The notes under the pieces are model-generated. The model ran no database searches. It saw nothing but the letters and a program-made list of their open reading frames with translations, and had not been told where the DNA came from. 64,000 nt of DNA from positions 248,001 to 312,000 of the forward strand of contig NZ_PEIG01000004.1 in NCBI RefSeq assembly GCF_002749975.1. Reading direction: 5' to 3'. Of the stretch, positions 33,061 through 64,000 are shown piece after piece. Within the stretch, counting starts at the first letter, position 1, and every line of letters begins with the position of its first letter. The DNA comes from Gloeocapsopsis sp. IPPAS B-1203. Lineage in GTDB: Bacteria; Cyanobacteriota; Cyanobacteriia; Cyanobacteriales; Chroococcidiopsidaceae. The translations under genes and the position numbers were made by a program.

Positions 33061-33915
33061 TTAGATTTGCCAAACACGCGATCGATAGGCTGGTTTTCCT
33101 AGAGAGGAAGATCGTAGCAGATGCCAGACCTCAGTGAACCAGTTTCGCACCTCAGTTGTAGAATTACCACGATAGCGGCATAATAAGCCTGCATTTAAGC
33201 GCGTAACGCCGATTTCGCCTTGTTCTACAGTAGAATTGAGGGTTCTTATTTTTTCTACCACGTCGGCTGATAGAGATTGTCCAATCCAGACAAAACTACC
33301 CACAATAGAGTTTCCCGCTAAACCGTGGGGGCTATTAATGATTTGCTCGTCTCCATGTAACCATTGGCGATCTATCCATAAAGGGTGTTGTTGTTGCCAA
33401 ACTTCAGTATGCGATCGCCAGTTACCTTGTAAAAATTTTTCTCCTCTAGCACTGCGACCAAAGCGAGTAATCTCCCAACTTGTCCAAGTAGCCCCAGGTG
33501 CCAATTCTACCTGTAAATCCTGTCGATAAATTGCCCCATTAAACACAATTGTTTCTTGAGGAAACCATTCTAAACAAGCATCAGTATCGACTTGTAGCAA
33601 AATATTTTGCCTAGCTTCCAAACCATTACTACGATAAATCTTACTAGCAGCAGCAGTTGTAATGAGTGTATGAGCTTGCGGTTGCAGATGAAAATTGAGT
33701 GATAGTTTGTCACCGCCAACAATACCTCCAGCAGTGTGTAAAATCACACTATGACAAACTGCTCCTTCTGGATAAAAAGGTCTTTGAACTTTTAGCGGTG
33801 CTTGCATTTGCTGGTGTGTCACCGCAGTTACACCATCTACTAACGCATAGACAATATTTAAACTACCGTGCCAAGAATTAAGCTTTTGAGACTTGTTGAG
33901 TTCTAGCAAGCGCAA
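33061..33915 (-). CDS. ureD: Urease accessory protein UreD
   Basis: A scaffold that binds apo-urease and helps nickel delivery with UreF, UreG and UreE. Typical motifs are GGIVGGDKLSLNF, ITTAAASKIYRS and FPQETIVFNGA. 284 aa is a normal length. It is the first gene of the ureD-ureA-ureB run; UreC, E, F and G must be encoded elsewhere. Confidence 0.93.
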   Translation of the reverse strand: MRLLELNKSQKLNSWHGSLNIVYALVDGVTAVTHQQMQAPLKVQRPFYPEGAVCHSVILHTAGGIVGGDKLSLNFHLQPQAHTLITTAAASKIYRSNGLEARQNILLQVDTDACLEWFPQETIVFNGAIYRQDLQVELAPGATWTSWEITRFGRSARGEKFLQGNWRSHTEVWQQQHPLWIDRQWLHGDEQIINSPHGLAGNSIVGSFVWIGQSLSADVVEKIRTLNSTVEQGEIGVTRLNAGLLCRYRGNSTTEVRNWFTEVWHLLRSSSLGKPAYRSRVWQI

Positions 33916-56600: not shown

Positions 56601-59289
56601 CCAGATCGTTGTCACGCAACTGTTTTGCTGTTTCTGCTGGTAGCCAAGCAGCATCATCCTTACCTTGTAAATCAGCAAATTTTACACCAAACATCTGCTC
56701 CATTGGTTCATTGATGTAAATGTGACGTCCTTTAGCATCCTTAATAAACGCCATGACTGGGCTATTGTTCATAAAAGTTTTGAAGCGATTTTCACTTTCA
56801 CGCAGTGCGGATAAAGCTTGTTCGCGTTCAGTAATATCGCTAGCAATTGTTAAAAACCCAGTGATATTTTTTTGAGAGTCGCGTAATGGTGTAACTGACA
56901 AAAGAACGGGAAAACGACTGCCATCTTTGCGAATGTAAGATAATTTATGTTCTTCAGTTTCGCCGTGGCGTGCCCTTGTCACCAATTCATCAAACAGCAA
57001 ACTCATGACATTGCTTGACTCAGGAGGTTCGCCCACTATTTGGGCAATTTCATAAATATCGTGAAGTATGATGGGTGTTGTTTGACCAATAACTTCGGCT
57101 GGAGCGTACTTTAACCATTTTCGCGCGCACTGATTGAAAGTTGTTATCGTACCATCTAAAGCAGTGGAAATGATTGCGTAGTTGGCACTGTCTAAAATTG
57201 CGCGTTGCAGCGTCATTGTTTTTTGCAAAGTTTCCTCTGCCAGCTTACGCTTGATAAACTGACCGATTTGGCTACCAATCGCTGCCATCATTTGCAGCAA
57301 GTCTGCGTCGGGTTCTTGACTTTTGCGATTAAAGAACACCATGACACCCAGTTTCTCATCACCGCTGTGAATGGGAAAACCTAAAGCGCTGCGTAATCCA
57401 ACTTTAGTGGCAATTGCTGTGCGGTGAAAATCAGGATCTTGGGTAATATCAGCAATCCAGAGTGGTTCTCTACTTGCCCAAACACGCCCAGGTAGCCCAA
57501 CTCCAGGAGTAAATGTGGTCTGTTGTGCGATCGCTTCAAATTCTTCAGCAGCAGCAAATGGTAAATGCCAAGTGTGTACGCAATGTAATACATTTTGCGG
57601 ATCAATACTCCACAGTTCGCTAAACTCCCACTCTAAGCTTTCGCAAACGGCTTGCAAAATTTTGGGAGTAGCAATACTCAGTGTTGCTGATTCTGCTAAT
57701 ACTTTTGTGATTGCGTGTTGTGTGACTAATCGCTGTTCGGCTCGTTTACGTGTAGTAATATCTATACCAGTGTTGACAACATACTCAATCTCATTTTGGT
57801 CATCCACAAGCATATTTCTTGACCAAGCAATCCAACGGTAACTACCATCCTTTGTTCTCCAGCAGCTTTCTTCCTCTTGGGGAAATTGATCGGCTTTCAG
57901 TTCGGTAAAGCTAGTTTTGACGACTTCTGCTTCTTCTGGTAGTAGAAATAAATTCCAGAAATACCTATCTCTGACTTCATCAAAGGAATAACCTGTGACT
58001 TGTTCGCAGGAAGTATTAAATCGCACAATTTGTCCTTGAGAATTAAGAACAAAAACCAGCGCGCTAGCCATATCAACTACCGCAGAAATGAAATTACGCT
58101 CTTTCTCAAGAGATGCTTCGATCTGCTTGCGTTGAGTAAATTCGGAATAGATTAAATAGTAGACATATGCCAGAATGACAAAAATGATTAAAATAGCGAT
58201 CGCTAGTGTTACTAGTGTTTTACGTACACTTACTTGTTCTTGAGTAGATAATTGCTGTAGTAGTGCCTTTTCATTTTTCTCGATCTCGTTAATATGCTTA
58301 CGGATATCATCCATAAGATATTTGCCGTGATGTGATGAAATTACTTCCAAAGCAGACGCAAATCCTTGTTTCCGTCGCAAATTAATGATTTTTTGGATCA
58401 GATCCAATCTCGTTTTGATGAGAGCTTCAACCGTCTTAATTTGTCTATAATTATTTAATCCTTGTAGTTCCTTTAACTGCTTTATTTTTAACGGAACATT
58501 TGTCAATGCTGTTTGATACGGTTCTAAATAAGATTTGTCTCCTGTAAGGACGTACCCTCGTTGTGCAGTTTCAGCGTCTTTGACGTATGAAAATAACTCT
58601 TCCCATGTGGTAATTTTCTTTTGGGCTATTGTGACCTGATTGCTATTATCAATTAGTTCTTTAATACTTTGGTATGAAACTGTACCAATTAAAACTAGAA
58701 TTAGTGAGGCTAAGCCAAATCCTCCAGCAACCTTTTTAACAAATTGCTGACGCGTTTTCTGCGAACGAGTTTTTTGTGTATGAACCAGTAGTAAATTAGC
58801 TAAGTTACGTCGTAATTCAAGTTGCTTGATCACTTGGCGACCGAGAAGTCTAAGTGCTTCTATTTGTTCAGGGCTAAGATTTCGTGGTACTTGATCGACT
58901 ACGCAGAGTGTTCCTAAGGCATAACCTTCAGGATTAACTAATGGTACACCAGCATAAAACCGGACAGGAGGTTCTGATGTGACAAATGGATTTGTTGCAA
59001 ACCGTTCATCGGCTAGCGCATCCGGTACGATCATCACATCAGGTTCTAAAATTGCATGAGCACAAAAAGCAATGTCTCGTGGTGTTTCTAGCGCCTCTAT
59101 CCCAACCTTGGACTTGAACCACTGCCGATTAGTATCAACTAGGCTGACTAAGGCGATCGGAGTTCCACAAATATATGCAGCTAAACGGGTAAGTTCATCA
59201 AAAGCAGCTTCATTAGGCGTGTCAAGAATTTTGTACTGTAGAAGTGCTTCAATTCTTTGGGCTTCGTTATTAGGTAGTGGTGCTTTCAT
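53668..59289 (-). CDS. Giant hybrid histidine kinase (GAF-CHASE3-PAS-GAF-PAS-PAS-GAF-HK-REC-REC-HPt)
   Basis: 1873 aa. Approximate order: GAF (10-165), membrane helix (197-216), CHASE3 sensor (220-360), membrane helix (362-385), PAS (395-520), GAF (530-690), PAS (700-830), PAS (840-960), GAF (975-1150). The kinase core follows with phospho-His H1161 ([14 protein letters not shown]) and intact ATPase boxes ([21 protein letters not shown]). Then come receiver 1 (D1450 in [10 protein letters not shown]), a broken partial receiver, receiver 2 (D1675 in [11 protein letters not shown]), and an HPt domain (H1817 in [10 protein letters not shown]). The phosphorelay could end at the neighbouring receiver-PP2C protein. 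The signal is unknown. Confidence 0.88.
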
Positions 59290-59774
59290 GAACCTTTACT
59301 CGCGATCGTCAAACTCATTCTTTTGTCACATCGAAATAAATGAAAGAAGTTTGAGTATCGATTCTCAATCTGCAAGATTGAATGACAGCATCGAACGTAG
59401 CAATGCATGGGTACTGCAAAGCCAGCAGATATAGTTGAATTTAAACAAGTCAGCACCACAGTTGGCATGCAAAAACAAGAACTTAGATTTATAGTTCCCT
59501 AAAAAAAATCATTTCTCACACCCAAATTCAAAATTTGATTGGACTGTTGGATCGCTTGGCGACTGAAGTCGCAGCTAATTAAACTAAGACCACCTCCGTG
59601 GTCTAATCACTAAATATACTTATGCAGTGTGCGTAGGTAGGCTTTGTTTCTCTAGCCCTATTTAGTCTGTGGGAAGCAGGATTCATATTTGGTAACTAAC
59701 GCTACGGTTTACAAGTGTCAATTGCTGCAGGATTATCTCCATCACGTTTTCATCGGTATGTGGTGGAGGATGCT
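59290..59774. other. 485-bp gap before fmdA, holds a palindromic repeat
   Basis: No gene was recognised. It contains the degenerate repeat at 59559-59603 and a GTG (59715) that could open the fmdA frame early but lacks a good ribosome site. Confidence 0.5.
59559..59603. repeat. Double-hairpin intergenic repeat
   Basis: Hairpin 1 is GCGAC(TGAA)GTCGC (59559-59572) and hairpin 2 is GACCAC(CTCC)GTGGTC (59588-59603), linked by AGCTAATTAAACTAA. This matches the widespread cyanobacterial GACTGAAGTCGCGGCTA...-type intergenic element. A degenerate copy is at about 39950. Confidence 0.65.
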
Positions 59775-60950
59775 ATGCCAGAAGTTCTCTTCAAAGTTGA
59801 CCTAAATAAACCATTTACTGAACAAGACTTAGTAGGTCATAATCGCTGGCATCCTGACATTCCTGCCATTGTGTCTGTTAATCCAGGAGCGGTATTTCGC
59901 ATCGAATGTAAAGATTGGACAGATGGACAGATTAGTAACAACGATAGCCCCAATGATGTGCGTGATGTTGATTTAAGTATGGTTCACGTTTTGAGTGGAC
60001 CTATTTGGGTAAATGGTGCGGAACCTGGAGATATCCTCGTCGTTGACTTGCTTGATGTGGGAACATTACCTGATTATGAATGGGGTTTTACAGGAATCTT
60101 CGCTAGAGAAAATGGCGGTGGTTTCTTAACAGAACACTTTCCTACCGCCCAAAAAGCAATTTGGGATATTCAAGGAATTTATACGCGATCGCGCCACATC
60201 CCCGATGTCAAATTTGCAGGAATTCCTCATCCTGGTTTAATCGGATGCGCCCCTTCAGCAGAATTACTGGCACAGTGGAATAAACGCGAAGCTGATTTAG
60301 TGGCAACAAATCCTAATCGAGTTCCACCGTTAGCAAATCTACCCAATCCGAAAAATGCAATTTTAGGTTCCCTCACAGGCGCAGAATACGATCGCGTCGC
60401 TCAAGAAGCCGCAAGAACTGTACCGCCCCGCGAACATGGCGGTAACTGCGATATCAAGAATTTATCAAAAGGTTCGCGGATTTATTTCCCTGTATACGTC
60501 GAGGGTGCAAAACTCTCAATGGGAGATATTCACTTTTCGCAAGGAGACGGAGAAATTACCTTCTGTGGTGCAATTGAAATGGCAGGGTATCTCGATCTTC
60601 ATGTCGATTTAATCAAAGGTGGTGTTGCCAAATATGGACTCACAAATCCTATATTCAAACCAGGTCCAGTTGAACCAAGGTATTCTGAGTATCTAGTATT
60701 TGAAGGGATTTCTGTTGATGAATTTTCTGGCGAACAGTATTATCTTGATGCCCATGTTGCCTATCGTCGTGCTTGTTTAAATGCGATCGAGTATTTTAAG
60801 AAATTTGGCTACACAGGCGAACAAATTTATCTACTGTTAGGTTCTGCGCCTGTTGAAGGAAGAATTAGCGGAATTGTAGATATTCCTAATGCTTGTTGTA
60901 CGATCGCCATTCCTACTGCAATTTTTGAGAGAAATGTTTTGCCATCATAA
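59775..60950 (+). CDS. fmdA: Formamidase / acetamidase family amidohydrolase
   Basis: Hydrolyses formamide (perhaps acetamide) to ammonium and formate. From ATG 59775 (GGTGGAGG just upstream) it is 391 aa: MPEVLFKVDLNKPF, HNRWHPDIPA, VHVLSGPIWVNGAEPGD, GIPHPGLIGCAPS, REHGGNCDIKNL and IHFSQGDGEITFCGAIEM are all FmdA/AmdA landmarks. fmdB follows. It would supply nitrogen, like the urease genes at 32148-33915. Confidence 0.9.
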   Translation: MPEVLFKVDLNKPFTEQDLVGHNRWHPDIPAIVSVNPGAVFRIECKDWTDGQISNNDSPNDVRDVDLSMVHVLSGPIWVNGAEPGDILVVDLLDVGTLPDYEWGFTGIFARENGGGFLTEHFPTAQKAIWDIQGIYTRSRHIPDVKFAGIPHPGLIGCAPSAELLAQWNKREADLVATNPNRVPPLANLPNPKNAILGSLTGAEYDRVAQEAARTVPPREHGGNCDIKNLSKGSRIYFPVYVEGAKLSMGDIHFSQGDGEITFCGAIEMAGYLDLHVDLIKGGVAKYGLTNPIFKPGPVEPRYSEYLVFEGISVDEFSGEQYYLDAHVAYRRACLNAIEYFKKFGYTGEQIYLLLGSAPVEGRISGIVDIPNACCTIAIPTAIFERNVLPS

Positions 60951-61001: not shown

Positions 61002-61268
61002 ATGCCTTTATACGAGTTTCGTTGTGATACCTGTGGATCTTTTGAAACCTGGCGTAATATGGCACAAGCTAGCGAACCGATGCTGTGTCCGAGTTGTGAT
61101 ACATTAGCCACAAGAATTTACTCGGTAGCTGGTTTGATTCTGACACCTTCAGCTTTAAGTCGCCGAATTGACCAAAGTGCAGAACCAAAAGTTCAGCAGC
61201 GTCATTCACACTCACACTCCCATAGTCACAACCATCACAACGGGCGTCCTTGGATGATTGGTCATTAA
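61002..61268 (+). CDS. fmdB: FmdB-family zinc-ribbon protein
   Basis: 88 aa. The N-terminal zinc ribbon MPLYEFRCDTCG with a second CPSC pair is the FmdB/PutRegulator fold found with formamidase genes and proposed to regulate them. A His-rich tail (HSHSHSHSHNHH, residues about 68-79) could bind metal, and it ends GRPWMIGH. A decayed copy of this tail lies at 63770-63908. Confidence 0.88.
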   Translation: MPLYEFRCDTCGSFETWRNMAQASEPMLCPSCDTLATRIYSVAGLILTPSALSRRIDQSAEPKVQQRHSHSHSHSHNHHNGRPWMIGH

Positions 61269-61269
61269 T

Positions 61270-62829
61270 TTACACTTTTTTGGCTAAAATTACATAGTCA
61301 TCAACTGCATAATTTTTAAAATATGGAATTTTTAAATATTGGTTATGGAGAGGTTGCATAAACTTTTGGTTAGGTAAATTCTCTCTAGCAAATTCAGAGA
61401 AATTCTCTGTATATCCTCTTTTTCCAGTCGAAGTAATGTATTTGTACCACTCTAGAGTCAATTGTAGTTCATCTAAAAATAGTTTTATAACCTGTTGCTC
61501 TTTACTAATATCTTCGCAATGATAAGTGTCATATGCTCTATATAGTTTAGTTCCTTGTACAATTAATAAAATATAACCTTCAGATGCTAAACTTGTTGAT
61601 ATTATCTTTTTGTACGCTTTTAGAGCTTTATATCTTTGCACTTTTTCGTTAAAGAAACAGTGGCAAATTACTATAAAATTAAAGAAATTTTGTGGTAATT
61701 TATTTAGCTTTTCATAGCTCAAAATATCACTAGTATCAAACCTAAAATAAGTATTAGTATCTAGATGTTGTTCTACATATTGTTGCCAAAATTGCCTTCC
61801 ATGCTGCTGTAGACTAGATTGCTTTTCTAAAGAATAGTAGCAAAAGGGTACTTGTGATGTTTGTAAAAAGTTTTTACTACTCTGCAAAAATAAAGCTAAC
61901 CCATAAGCAACTGTACTAGGTCCAGCAGCAATATCTAATACAGTTAGCTGACTTGATAATAATCCAGATTTATAAATTAAGAACCAAGCAATGTATGTAC
62001 AGTATACATTATCTAAAAAATACTGTAGAAAATAAACATGAGGAGTTAATTCTAAATTATATTGCGGATCTCTTCTGTTCCGTACTTCACTAATATCTGT
62101 ACGTGCTTTGTTTATTGCGGTAGTTAAATGGAGTTCAGGTATTTTTTTGAACTCTTCTACCAAATAATTAGTTAAACTAGATTCAAACTCATCAAAAACA
62201 ATCTGATCTATTCCAGTACAATGCAATTTATATTGATCTAAATCAGTTATTTTTAGTACGTTTGATATGTGTGCTATCAATTCTAACTTTGGTTTAAGTA
62301 AGCAGGTATTATAAGTTGACTGCTGTTGTTGTAATTCTTTGAGTAACTGCTCTTGAATAACGATTTGCTCGTAACTTAGATTCAATGCTGCTTCTTTTTG
62401 ATCTATTTGTTGCTCTAAATCTTTAATTAAATATTCATCTGATTGAATTTGCAGTTCTACTAAACTGATTTTTTTCTCTCGGTGATTTAGTTGATGTTGT
62501 AAATTTTTAATTGTTCTTTCACTAGTAGATACTTGTTCTAATAAATCATGGTATTCCTGTTTATGAATAATAGTTACAATTTCTTGATTTTGCCTAGCTT
62601 CTATTAATTGTTGTCGTAAACTTAAAACTTCGCTTTCAGATACTACTAAACGTTCTTCTAACTCTAATTTTTCTTTAAAGGTTTTTTGAAGAGGAGAATA
62701 TCTATTCTCTGCTTTTTGGGTTTTGTTTAGTATTTTCTTTGCTAAACCAGTATCTCCTTTGCCTAGAGCTTTATGGAATCGAAATCGTTGCCACCATGCT
62801 ACGATTATTTTACTAATAAGTGAAGCCAT
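61270..62829 (-). CDS. Coiled-coil protein with C-terminal SAM-dependent methyltransferase domain
   Basis: 519 aa from ATG 62829, preferred over ATG 62841 because GGTAAGG lies just upstream. Residues 20-170 are long charged heptad helices (for example LVVSESEVLSLRQQLIEARQ). From about 270 a class I methyltransferase fold is seen: LTVLDIAAGPSTVAYGL (motif I), FCYYSLEKQSS, FRFDTSDILSY and FIVICHCFFNEK. The substrate is unknown. The AT-rich codon use differs from flanking genes. It overlaps the radical SAM gene by 17-29 bp, so they are coupled. Confidence 0.7.
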   Translation of the reverse strand: MASLISKIIVAWWQRFRFHKALGKGDTGLAKKILNKTQKAENRYSPLQKTFKEKLELEERLVVSESEVLSLRQQLIEARQNQEIVTIIHKQEYHDLLEQVSTSERTIKNLQHQLNHREKKISLVELQIQSDEYLIKDLEQQIDQKEAALNLSYEQIVIQEQLLKELQQQQSTYNTCLLKPKLELIAHISNVLKITDLDQYKLHCTGIDQIVFDEFESSLTNYLVEEFKKIPELHLTTAINKARTDISEVRNRRDPQYNLELTPHVYFLQYFLDNVYCTYIAWFLIYKSGLLSSQLTVLDIAAGPSTVAYGLALFLQSSKNFLQTSQVPFCYYSLEKQSSLQQHGRQFWQQYVEQHLDTNTYFRFDTSDILSYEKLNKLPQNFFNFIVICHCFFNEKVQRYKALKAYKKIISTSLASEGYILLIVQGTKLYRAYDTYHCEDISKEQQVIKLFLDELQLTLEWYKYITSTGKRGYTENFSEFARENLPNQKFMQPLHNQYLKIPYFKNYAVDDYVILAKKV

Positions 62830-63727
62830 CCTTACCTTCAATAATCTCTATATCTTTGAGAGAAGTTAATTTATCTTTGAATACTAAATAATTTACTTTC
62901 TCATTTTCATACCACCAAGCGTATTTTTGCTTAATTGTCAAAGCTTCCTGACGAGTTGTTGCTACAAGTAGGCGATTTTGACTAGAATGAAATTCTTGAA
63001 TGACAATGCGATCGCCTATTTGAAGTTGATTGATAAAATTTGTGACGTCAGCTGGTAAAGTAGGAAGTAGTGGTGTAACAGTAATCGAAATTTTGGGGAC
63101 GTAACCTTTTAAGGGATCAATATTTTTTTTAATTTTTGTTAAAGCATTAAAACGAGCTTTAATACTAGGCGATCGCGGTTCAAAATCTTTTCTGACTACT
63201 TCACTACCAGTAGGAATACTCATATTAATTCGTAAGTGCTTGAATCGCTGTAAAATATCAATATCTCTAGTAATGATTGGACTACGAGTTTGAATAACTA
63301 AAATTGGGCGATACTCTAGCATAACCTCTAGTAGTCGGCGAGTCAGTTGCTTTTTAGACTCTATCGGTTGGTAAGGATCAGTAACGCTACTCATGTAAAT
63401 TTTAGGGAATTTTCCTGGATTTTTTTGACACCAGCGATTCAATTCTTTTTCTAAAACTTCTACAGCATTTTGCTTAATAATGACCCAGTTACCCCAATCT
63501 TGACGCATTTTTGGATTAGGACTAAATGCTACTGCATAACAATAGCTACATCCATACTGACAACCTCGATATGGATTCAGTGTAAAATCGTAAGCTGCGA
63601 TAAATCCAGTTGCTTTTGTTAGTAGAGACTGAGTATTTTGTGAGTAAATATTGGCGTTACCGAATGTTTCTTTGACTAAAATGGTGGGGGTACTTTCGCA
63701 ATATTTTTCATACTGAGGCTTAGTCAT
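62813..63727 (-). CDS. SPL-type radical SAM protein
   Basis: 304 aa. CQYGCSYCYAVAF supplies the CX3CX2C [4Fe-4S] ligands after LNPYRGC, typical of the SPL/Rv2578c group. SSVTDPYQPIE and LVIQTRSPIITRDID are family strands. It has no spore photoproduct Cys that I can identify, and non-sporulating bacteria do not make spore photoproduct, so this is not proof of photoproduct lyase. It is the first gene of the pair with the methyltransferase. Confidence 0.82.
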   Translation of the reverse strand: MTKPQYEKYCESTPTILVKETFGNANIYSQNTQSLLTKATGFIAAYDFTLNPYRGCQYGCSYCYAVAFSPNPKMRQDWGNWVIIKQNAVEVLEKELNRWCQKNPGKFPKIYMSSVTDPYQPIESKKQLTRRLLEVMLEYRPILVIQTRSPIITRDIDILQRFKHLRINMSIPTGSEVVRKDFEPRSPSIKARFNALTKIKKNIDPLKGYVPKISITVTPLLPTLPADVTNFINQLQIGDRIVIQEFHSSQNRLLVATTRQEALTIKQKYAWWYENEKVNYLVFKDKLTSLKDIEIIEGKDGFTY

Positions 63728-63769
63728 ATTTATTTTAAATTAGATACCGTTGCAGCAACAGTTTTTTGC

Positions 63770-63908
63770 TGTTTGCTAGTTTAATTTTATACCTCCAACT
63801 TTGAGTCGTCGAATTGAACAAAGTGCAGAACCAAAAGTTAAGCAGCGCGATTCACATTCGCAGAATCACAATTATTACCACGGGCGTCCCTGGATGATTG
63901 GTCATTAA
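63770..63908 (+). pseudogene. Remnant of the fmdB 3' end
   Basis: About 139 bp resembling the end of fmdB. It encodes PPTLSRRIEQSAEPKVKQRD, then a shortened His/Asn stretch, HGRPWMIGH and TAA, against PSALSRRIDQSAEPKVQQRH and GRPWMIGH in the intact gene. One base is missing near 63788 relative to fmdB, there is no start or zinc ribbon, and the His repeat is partly lost. The two copies flank the methyltransferase/radical SAM pair in direct orientation. Confidence 0.85.
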
Positions 63909-64000
63909 AATGAGATCGTATTTTCTCCGTTTTTAATCTTGATATTCGTCTGTACGATCATTTTGGTCAACCTAAGGACTCGATAACTGCCAGAGTTGGA

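Follow-up and report, generated by a model that had tools for sequence, protein, structure and literature searches.

An explanation akin to homology-facilitated illegitimate recombination has been given for the displaced 3' ends seen, together with orphan immunity genes, in type VI secretion clusters of Vibrio cholerae, and the same source names 3'-end displacement in Rhs genes (PMC5361080). Linear DNA can be integrated by this type of recombination when just one of its ends is homologous, or it can circularise and enter by a single crossover (PMC3240628). Direct repeats also flank 10–18% of the variable segments covered in PMC2884548, where the available text reads them as possible deletion sites. 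The gene pair with which this study is concerned is uncharacterised as far as literature searches show: no paper on it was found, judged by titles and the beginnings of abstracts, and the urease modules named in the accessible part of PMC5862535 do not include it.

The pair is located in a window of 64,000 nucleotides (the whole stretch of DNA that was analyzed) from Gloeocapsopsis sp. IPPAS B-1203, whose genome is G000 in all comparisons. An initial annotation placed this methyltransferase/radical SAM pair between the stop codon of fmdB and a diverged direct repeat of the fmdB 3' end with the same GRPWMIGH-stop, an arrangement that our alignment confirms. The features are the following:

59715..60950, plus strand: fmdA, formamidase/acetamidase (PF03069, 1e-188); the final ~135 bases are past the step in divergence versus G001 at 60815
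60815, no strand: putative left recombination breakpoint; G000–G001 divergence is 2.9% to the left and 13.2% to the right
61002..61268, plus strand: fmdB, intact, encoding an FmdB-family zinc ribbon protein of 88 aa (Zn_ribbon_8, 1e-12; TIGR02605, 51.8 bits versus a cut-off of 31.3)
61270..62829, minus strand: methyltransferase gene, N-terminal coiled coil and class I SAM methyltransferase domain with a predicted Rsm22/METTL17-like fold
62813..63727, minus strand: radical SAM gene with a CxxxCxxC motif and a predicted spore-photoproduct-lyase-like fold (PF04055, 1.6e-10)
63775..63908, plus strand: decayed second fmdB 3' end (remnant); protein-level similarity from 63750, weak from ~63742
63909..63971, no strand: spacer that aligns poorly with the post-fmdB spacer of G001 and G002; imperfect inverted repeat seen by eye
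63972..64000, minus strand: end of the gene that follows, which encodes a methyltransferase-domain protein of 285 aa and continues past the window; it is the first of three genes directly after the fmdB end in G001 and G002

As annotated, the pair (61270–63727) runs on the strand opposite to fmdB. The stop codon of the methyltransferase gene starts at 61270, one base past that of fmdB, making both genes convergent. At its other end, the methyltransferase gene is overlapped by the radical SAM gene; its longest start is a TTG at 62841, but the alternative ATG at 62829 is judged more likely. The ureD gene of the window is found at 33064–33891, 26 kb from fmdA. The names ureA, ureB, ureC, urtE, ureD, crtD and groL were first assigned by eye, with a later check on a single representative of each; other copies of the named neighbour genes were assigned by similarity.

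The reading that we place first, at somewhat below an even chance, is that recombination with homology on one side only displaced the native 3' end of fmdB, which would now be the second fmdB end. Donor DNA from a relative with the order fmdA-fmdB-methyltransferase-radical SAM would have met a resident fmdA-fmdB. Homologous exchange would have occurred near the end of fmdA, at ~60815, and the other end, just upstream of the radical SAM gene (~63728–63775), would have been joined without homology or via a transient circle, with the far joint falling inside the resident fmdB at approximately codon 31–42. The product would take the form X.a-P-a.b, in which the resident 3' end (a) is left startless beside the pair (P), and the fmdB that is complete (a.b) is imported or a hybrid. 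Which way the transfer went, from what donor and with which precise joints is inferred. Such an import is expected to give a drop in identity at ~60815 and a recovery after the remnant, because the fmdA 3' end, fmdB and the pair would have entered together and displaced the native end.

The remnant aligns to fmdB positions 61128–61268 with gaps of one and six bases, at 80% identity over 141 columns with gaps and 85% over the ungapped columns. Its local score is 145, compared to at most 27 for 219 stretches of 274 bases that tile the first 60 kb of the window (plus strand only), and the likeness is therefore not due to chance. The GRPWMIGH tail pointed out earlier is only part of it, as the copy covers roughly the last half of fmdB (residues 35–88 by tblastn, reaching 63750). 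A further extension to ~63742 is weak, being equalled or exceeded by 7 of 2000 shuffles. The reading frame is open over the last 35 codons, starting from LSRR, with a one-base deletion (frameshift) upstream, and most of the zinc ribbon is missing. The longest exact run shared by both copies, counted by eye, measures 21 bases and lies within the coding sequence. At the 22 differing sites, the remnant carries 10 private changes and the intact fmdB five, numbers that would fit a displaced native end in decay. At these same sites G001 agrees with fmdB 14 times and with the remnant seven times, and G002 10 times with each, so that allele sharing is indecisive as to which of the two fmdB ends is native. 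Identities to G001 and G002 are 83% and 85% for the remnant and 87% and 83% for the intact fmdB, while the fmdB 3' ends of G001 and G002 differ from each other by 14% in this stretch. That the remnant is no closer to these two genomes than the intact copy is an observation against one-sided import, and so is the spacer behind the remnant, which matches neither genome. In favour of one-sided import, the remnant continues into genes that G000 has in common with G001 and G002.

The identity between G000 and G001 is 97.3% over 59715–60640, 95.5% over 60641–60750 and 91.5% over 60751–60950, and within fmdB it is 83.3% for one part and 87.2% for the other. The best-scoring step lies at 60815, with a gain of 26.3 versus at most 7.0 in 200 permutations. 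Past the remnant the identity recovers: from ~64074 on, 20 out of 30 windows of ~150 bases are at 93–98% and the other 10 at 81–92%. The step marks a different origin of G000 and G001 at this place, whichever of the two genomes has changed, and it supplies the breakpoint sought for an import with homologous exchange on one side. For nine other genome pairs the best change points are elsewhere, the nearest at 60890. Two of these nine exceed their permutations (G014–G010 at 60890, gain 10.7 versus 8.1; G004–G010 at 61097, gain 8.0 versus 7.3), so fmdB alleles may be exchanged more widely. G000 and G001 also share only 59–77% identity over ~58135–58678, a part of the upstream kinase gene, and mosaic stretches are therefore not unique to the fmdB region. 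At the far joint, the remnant starts at ~63742–63775 and adjoins the upstream region of the radical SAM gene, for which the comparison with relatives was made by eye only. In the collections searched, no donor with the imported order at high identity was found, the closest radical SAM protein being 77% identical; this, too, is an observation against one-sided import.

Two further pair loci carry comparable scars. In Oscillatoria sp. PCC 10802 (L151 = L265), the pair is flanked by a ureD 5' remnant on one side and an intact ureD on the other; the remnant has 99 bases and is 95% identical to the ureD of the same genome. Between this remnant and the radical SAM gene there is a stretch of 160 bases similar to the urtE 3' end. 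As urtE precedes the pair in other genomes, this joint of ureD 5' and urtE 3' sequence has the look of an insert boundary. G117, a congener without any radical SAM match, matches the stretch leading into the remnant (77%) and the intact ureD from approximately codon 8 (94%); measured against this pairless genome, identity is 94.7% for the intact ureD and 77.8% for the remnant region, by which the intact ureD looks native. The urtE piece is closest to the urtE of its own genome and of G117 (80% each), with others at 71–74%. On these alignments, a single crossover of a circle, a close donor and a tandem duplication would fit equally well. The native look of the intact anchor in L151, with duplication fitting as well, is listed among the observations against one-sided import, together with Nostoc mirabile (L212), where a shorter ureD 5' remnant is found 1.1 kb before the radical SAM gene and the intact ureD follows behind the pair. 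In all three loci, the repeat is drawn from the neighbour gene, from its end closest to the methyltransferase, in the form X.a-P-a.b.

With one rule applied alike, the scar occurs in 3 out of 105 distinct pair loci and in none of 182 control gene pairs (p 0.048); the rule had been loosened after its first version, which excluded overlapping genes, missed L151 (2/105 versus 0/182, p 0.13). The control comparison is small. When both flanks of 61 loci were compared by blastn, matches were obtained in L031 and L151, with short, inverted or dispersed matches in L106, L117, L119, L120, L123, L124, L129, L140, L142, L144 and L155. A protein-level scan of the flanks gave 11 rows in 141 locus records, from which L031, L151 (= L265) and L212 were kept. 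Three rows of L109 and two of L246 were dropped (12–25 residues, not in the adjoining gene), as was L142 (= L262), an inverted 52-base repeat.

A second explanation, rather unlikely but still to be reckoned with, takes up the duplication that the initial annotation had named as its alternative: a single genome would have duplicated in tandem the segment reaching from the fmdB 3' end to a point upstream of the radical SAM gene, and would then have lost one copy of the pair. The pair itself would then be vertical and would have been lost in sister genomes. The distribution within the family is in line with this. Out of 19 genomes, five carry the radical SAM gene (in G017 at a contig end) and four the methyltransferase gene (interrupted by stops in G011). 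The radical SAM gene adjoins the orthologue of crtD, a carotenoid desaturase gene, in G011, G015 and G017, and is separated from it by one gene in G009; in the genome of the window, crtD is found a few genes downstream of the locus. In the radical SAM tree, the window's protein is at the base of a clade formed by G011, G015, G017 and family f33 (support 93/87), with G009 elsewhere. Given this common crtD neighbourhood and the tree, the place of the pair is old, and the window has it in its old family place; some family copies need not descend vertically, though. The L151 joint described above, with its urtE piece closest to the own urtE, is also what a tandem duplication is expected to produce. 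On the other hand, a duplication leaves the divergence step in fmdA unexplained, no trace of a second pair is visible after the remnant, and separate losses would be required in G001, G002 and genus g3.

These losses bear on how the pairless relatives are read. As had been foreseen for an empty site, G001 and G002, which belong to the same genus, lack the pair and have their fmdB end directly before the three-gene block (in G002 only the 3' part of fmdB is present at this place, with no fmdA). In G014 and G004 the fmdB end directly precedes crtD, and in G010 unrelated genes. The synteny agrees with the expectation, but the pairless sites may be losses as well as empty sites. We rejected the pairless sisters as proof of the state before insertion, in view of the radical SAM gene beside or near crtD in G011, G015, G017 and G009; a further counter-case is G012, where crtD and ureD are 0.85 kb apart and the genome has no radical SAM match.

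The same comparison allows a reverse transfer, in which a genome that retained fmdA, fmdB and the pair received the three-gene block together with a foreign fmdB 3' end, anchored in crtD. This would give the same final order, and both the block behind the fmdB end in G001 and G002 and the crtD orthologue directly after fmdB in G014 and G004 suit it. However, it predicts that the fmdB of G000 is as close to G001 as fmdA is, unless the fmdB of G001 was replaced, and we regard it as distinctly improbable.

Very improbable indeed is that a small element integrated site-specifically at the 3' end of fmdB and left attL/attR-like repeats, a reading which the initial annotation had proposed from the direct repeat of a gene end and which the relatives without the pair would also suit: the nearest match to PF00589 (tyrosine integrase; eight places in the genome) on this contig is 132 kb away, in keeping with the annotated lack of an integrase in view, no tRNA was found in the window, the repeat is not a short identical core at both element ends but measures 134–141 bases with two gaps and ~15% divergence (~85% identity), no repeat of this kind is seen where other loci have the pair next to fmdB, and the mobile collections hold no close relative of the pair (all 78 plasmid matches below 60% identity, the best-ranked at 42%; all nine phage matches below 60%; 13 loci on viral contigs at only 26–34%).

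Base composition had been taken as a further sign of transfer. The pair is indeed AT-rich (31.5% G+C versus 40.6% for the window), but the methyltransferase gene is lower in G+C than its flanks in 61 out of 61 loci (mean −7.6 points, the window being third lowest), and composition therefore says little about transfer. For the radical SAM gene, the G+C is lower on average only (mean −3.4, sd 2.9). AT-richness was thus rejected as evidence. The divergence step near fmdB does suggest a different origin of the DNA.

Beyond the family, the occurrence of the pair was mapped in a sample of 388 genomes from the order. The radical SAM protein was matched in 116 of these, in 84 of them at E below 1e-90; for the methyltransferase the number is 85. 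From the better radical SAM matches, 61 neighbourhoods including that of the window were chosen, to which 80 further named neighbourhoods were added (the best 80 of 176 relatives); the resulting 141 records contain 36 duplicates, leaving 105 distinct loci. In 103 out of 105, the methyltransferase gene comes no more than 5 kb after the radical SAM gene. Downstream on the same strand, ureD is found within 3.5 kb in 50 of the 91 loci with enough sequence, in 39 of those 50 within 300 bases. A convergent fmdB follows the pair in five loci (the window, L146, L147, L152 and L264), and this convergent arrangement also occurs in distant cyanobacteria. The order in L146 and L152 is pair, fmdB, fmdA, ureD, and the window has the same order and orientation. 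In three more loci (L136, L139 and L142) fmdB is on the other side of the pair, with fmdA found only in L136 and L139. Altogether, the pair is an old cyanobacterial module, often beside urease genes. A dependence of the pair on urease was also sought in co-occurrence: ureD (E ≤ 1e-20) is present in 71 of the 84 genomes with the radical SAM gene (hand-picked at E below 1e-90) versus 229 of the 304 without it. This difference is not significant (Fisher p 0.079), and the urease link therefore comes from gene order.

Membership of the radical SAM superfamily is indicated by a PF04055 match above the cut-off and by C56, C60 and C63, which are invariant in 31 sequences. The model of the protein (pLDDT 86) is most similar to spore photoproduct lyase (SPL), with VIA Z-scores of 17.7–18.2 for six SPL entries and 14.5 for the next; fold and CxxxCxxC motif are alike, but the identity is only 12–13%. 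The radical SAM families of PA0069 and Rv2578c share the motif as well, with scores far below the family cut-offs (for NF033668, the PA0069 family, 1.1e-35 but 123.3 versus 360 bits, below the curated cut-off). For the methyltransferase, the model (pLDDT 87) consists of a long coiled coil and a class I domain that is closest to the mitoribosome assembly factors Rsm22/METTL17 (Z 16.3–17.5 in eight entries, next 14.5; 242–261 residues aligned at an rmsd of 3.3–4.1), alike in fold at 11–12% identity. Rsm22/METTL17 proteins have conserved cysteines for an Fe-S cluster. Among 32 aligned methyltransferase relatives no cysteine is invariant, and C391 alone reaches 90% or more; the Rsm22 family is absent from the 19 Pfam families that these 32 members match at E 0.05. 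Sequence profiles gave nothing meaningful against the PDB. Fold similarity between models at 11–13% identity would not suffice to show a function. The overlapping genes and their near-constant order suggest joint action, and the two enzymes plausibly modify RNA or a ribosomal or urease-linked substrate together. A wider and more doubtful proposal is that these two enzymes may form an unrecognised cyanobacterial module that modifies RNA or protein, is linked to the nitrogen locus of urease and formamidase genes, and is gained and lost as a unit via ureD- or fmdB-anchored recombination, with truncated anchors as scars.

A flanking repeat of a gene end combined with pairless relatives need not mean a mobile element, as an old module can carry such a repeat through neighbour-anchored recombination or duplication, and low G+C can be intrinsic to the genes themselves. 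The locus further draws attention to two conserved but uncharacterised enzyme genes that many cyanobacteria carry next to their urease genes.

The evidence suggests that the scar results from ordinary recombination or duplication rather than from a site-specific mobile element; the event is of a known kind. With the Vibrio cholerae type VI clusters (PMC5361080), our preferred reading of a displaced native end would have in common that homology anchors one side, that the other side is joined without it, and that an old end is left downstream of the new module; here, however, it is a part of the anchor gene that has been displaced, no effector genes are involved and no series of remnants is seen. 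Homology-facilitated illegitimate recombination and circularisation are laboratory events in PMC3240628, whereas the present case is read from diverged natural sequences. Finally, like the variable segments of PMC2884548, this locus has a small segment that is present in some genomes and absent in others, with direct repeats where it is inserted or missing, but the repeat here is an unequal, decayed gene end.

Across cyanobacteria, the urease gene ureD is a frequent neighbour of the radical SAM-methyltransferase gene pair, occurring at 50 of the 91 pair loci with enough sequence for this count (e.g., L103, L106, L125, L146 and L152), which were taken from the better-matching neighbourhoods and the best 80 of 176 named relatives. 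The fmdA-fmdB genes are an occasional neighbour of the pair in this phylum. Among the publications listed by literature searches, none dealt with the pair, judging by titles and the opening of abstracts. In the same-family genome G011 (locus L102), stop codons break both the methyltransferase gene and the nearby ureD, and the radical SAM gene is still open; this locus is possibly undergoing loss.

The GRPWMIGH tail of fmdB (window 61239-61268) is strongly conserved among relatives, and the protein scores 57.9 bits against the NCBIfam RPWMISH-domain family NF053663, below the cut-off of 120. The spacer 3' of the fmdB remnant (window 63909-63971) has no counterpart in G001 or G002, two same-genus relatives without the pair. 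By eye, an imperfect inverted repeat of around 12 bases can be discerned within this spacer. Identity to G001 drops to 59-77% at 58135-58678, within a long histidine kinase gene; either this is a further mosaic segment, or repeated domains have been misaligned there.

In G002 (neighbourhood L036), fmdB is truncated by ~21 codons at its start and has no fmdA nearby. Beside the truncated gene lie:

L036, 6428-7227: genes for a TacA1-like antitoxin and a GNAT acetyltransferase

Together, these two genes resemble a toxin-antitoxin pair.
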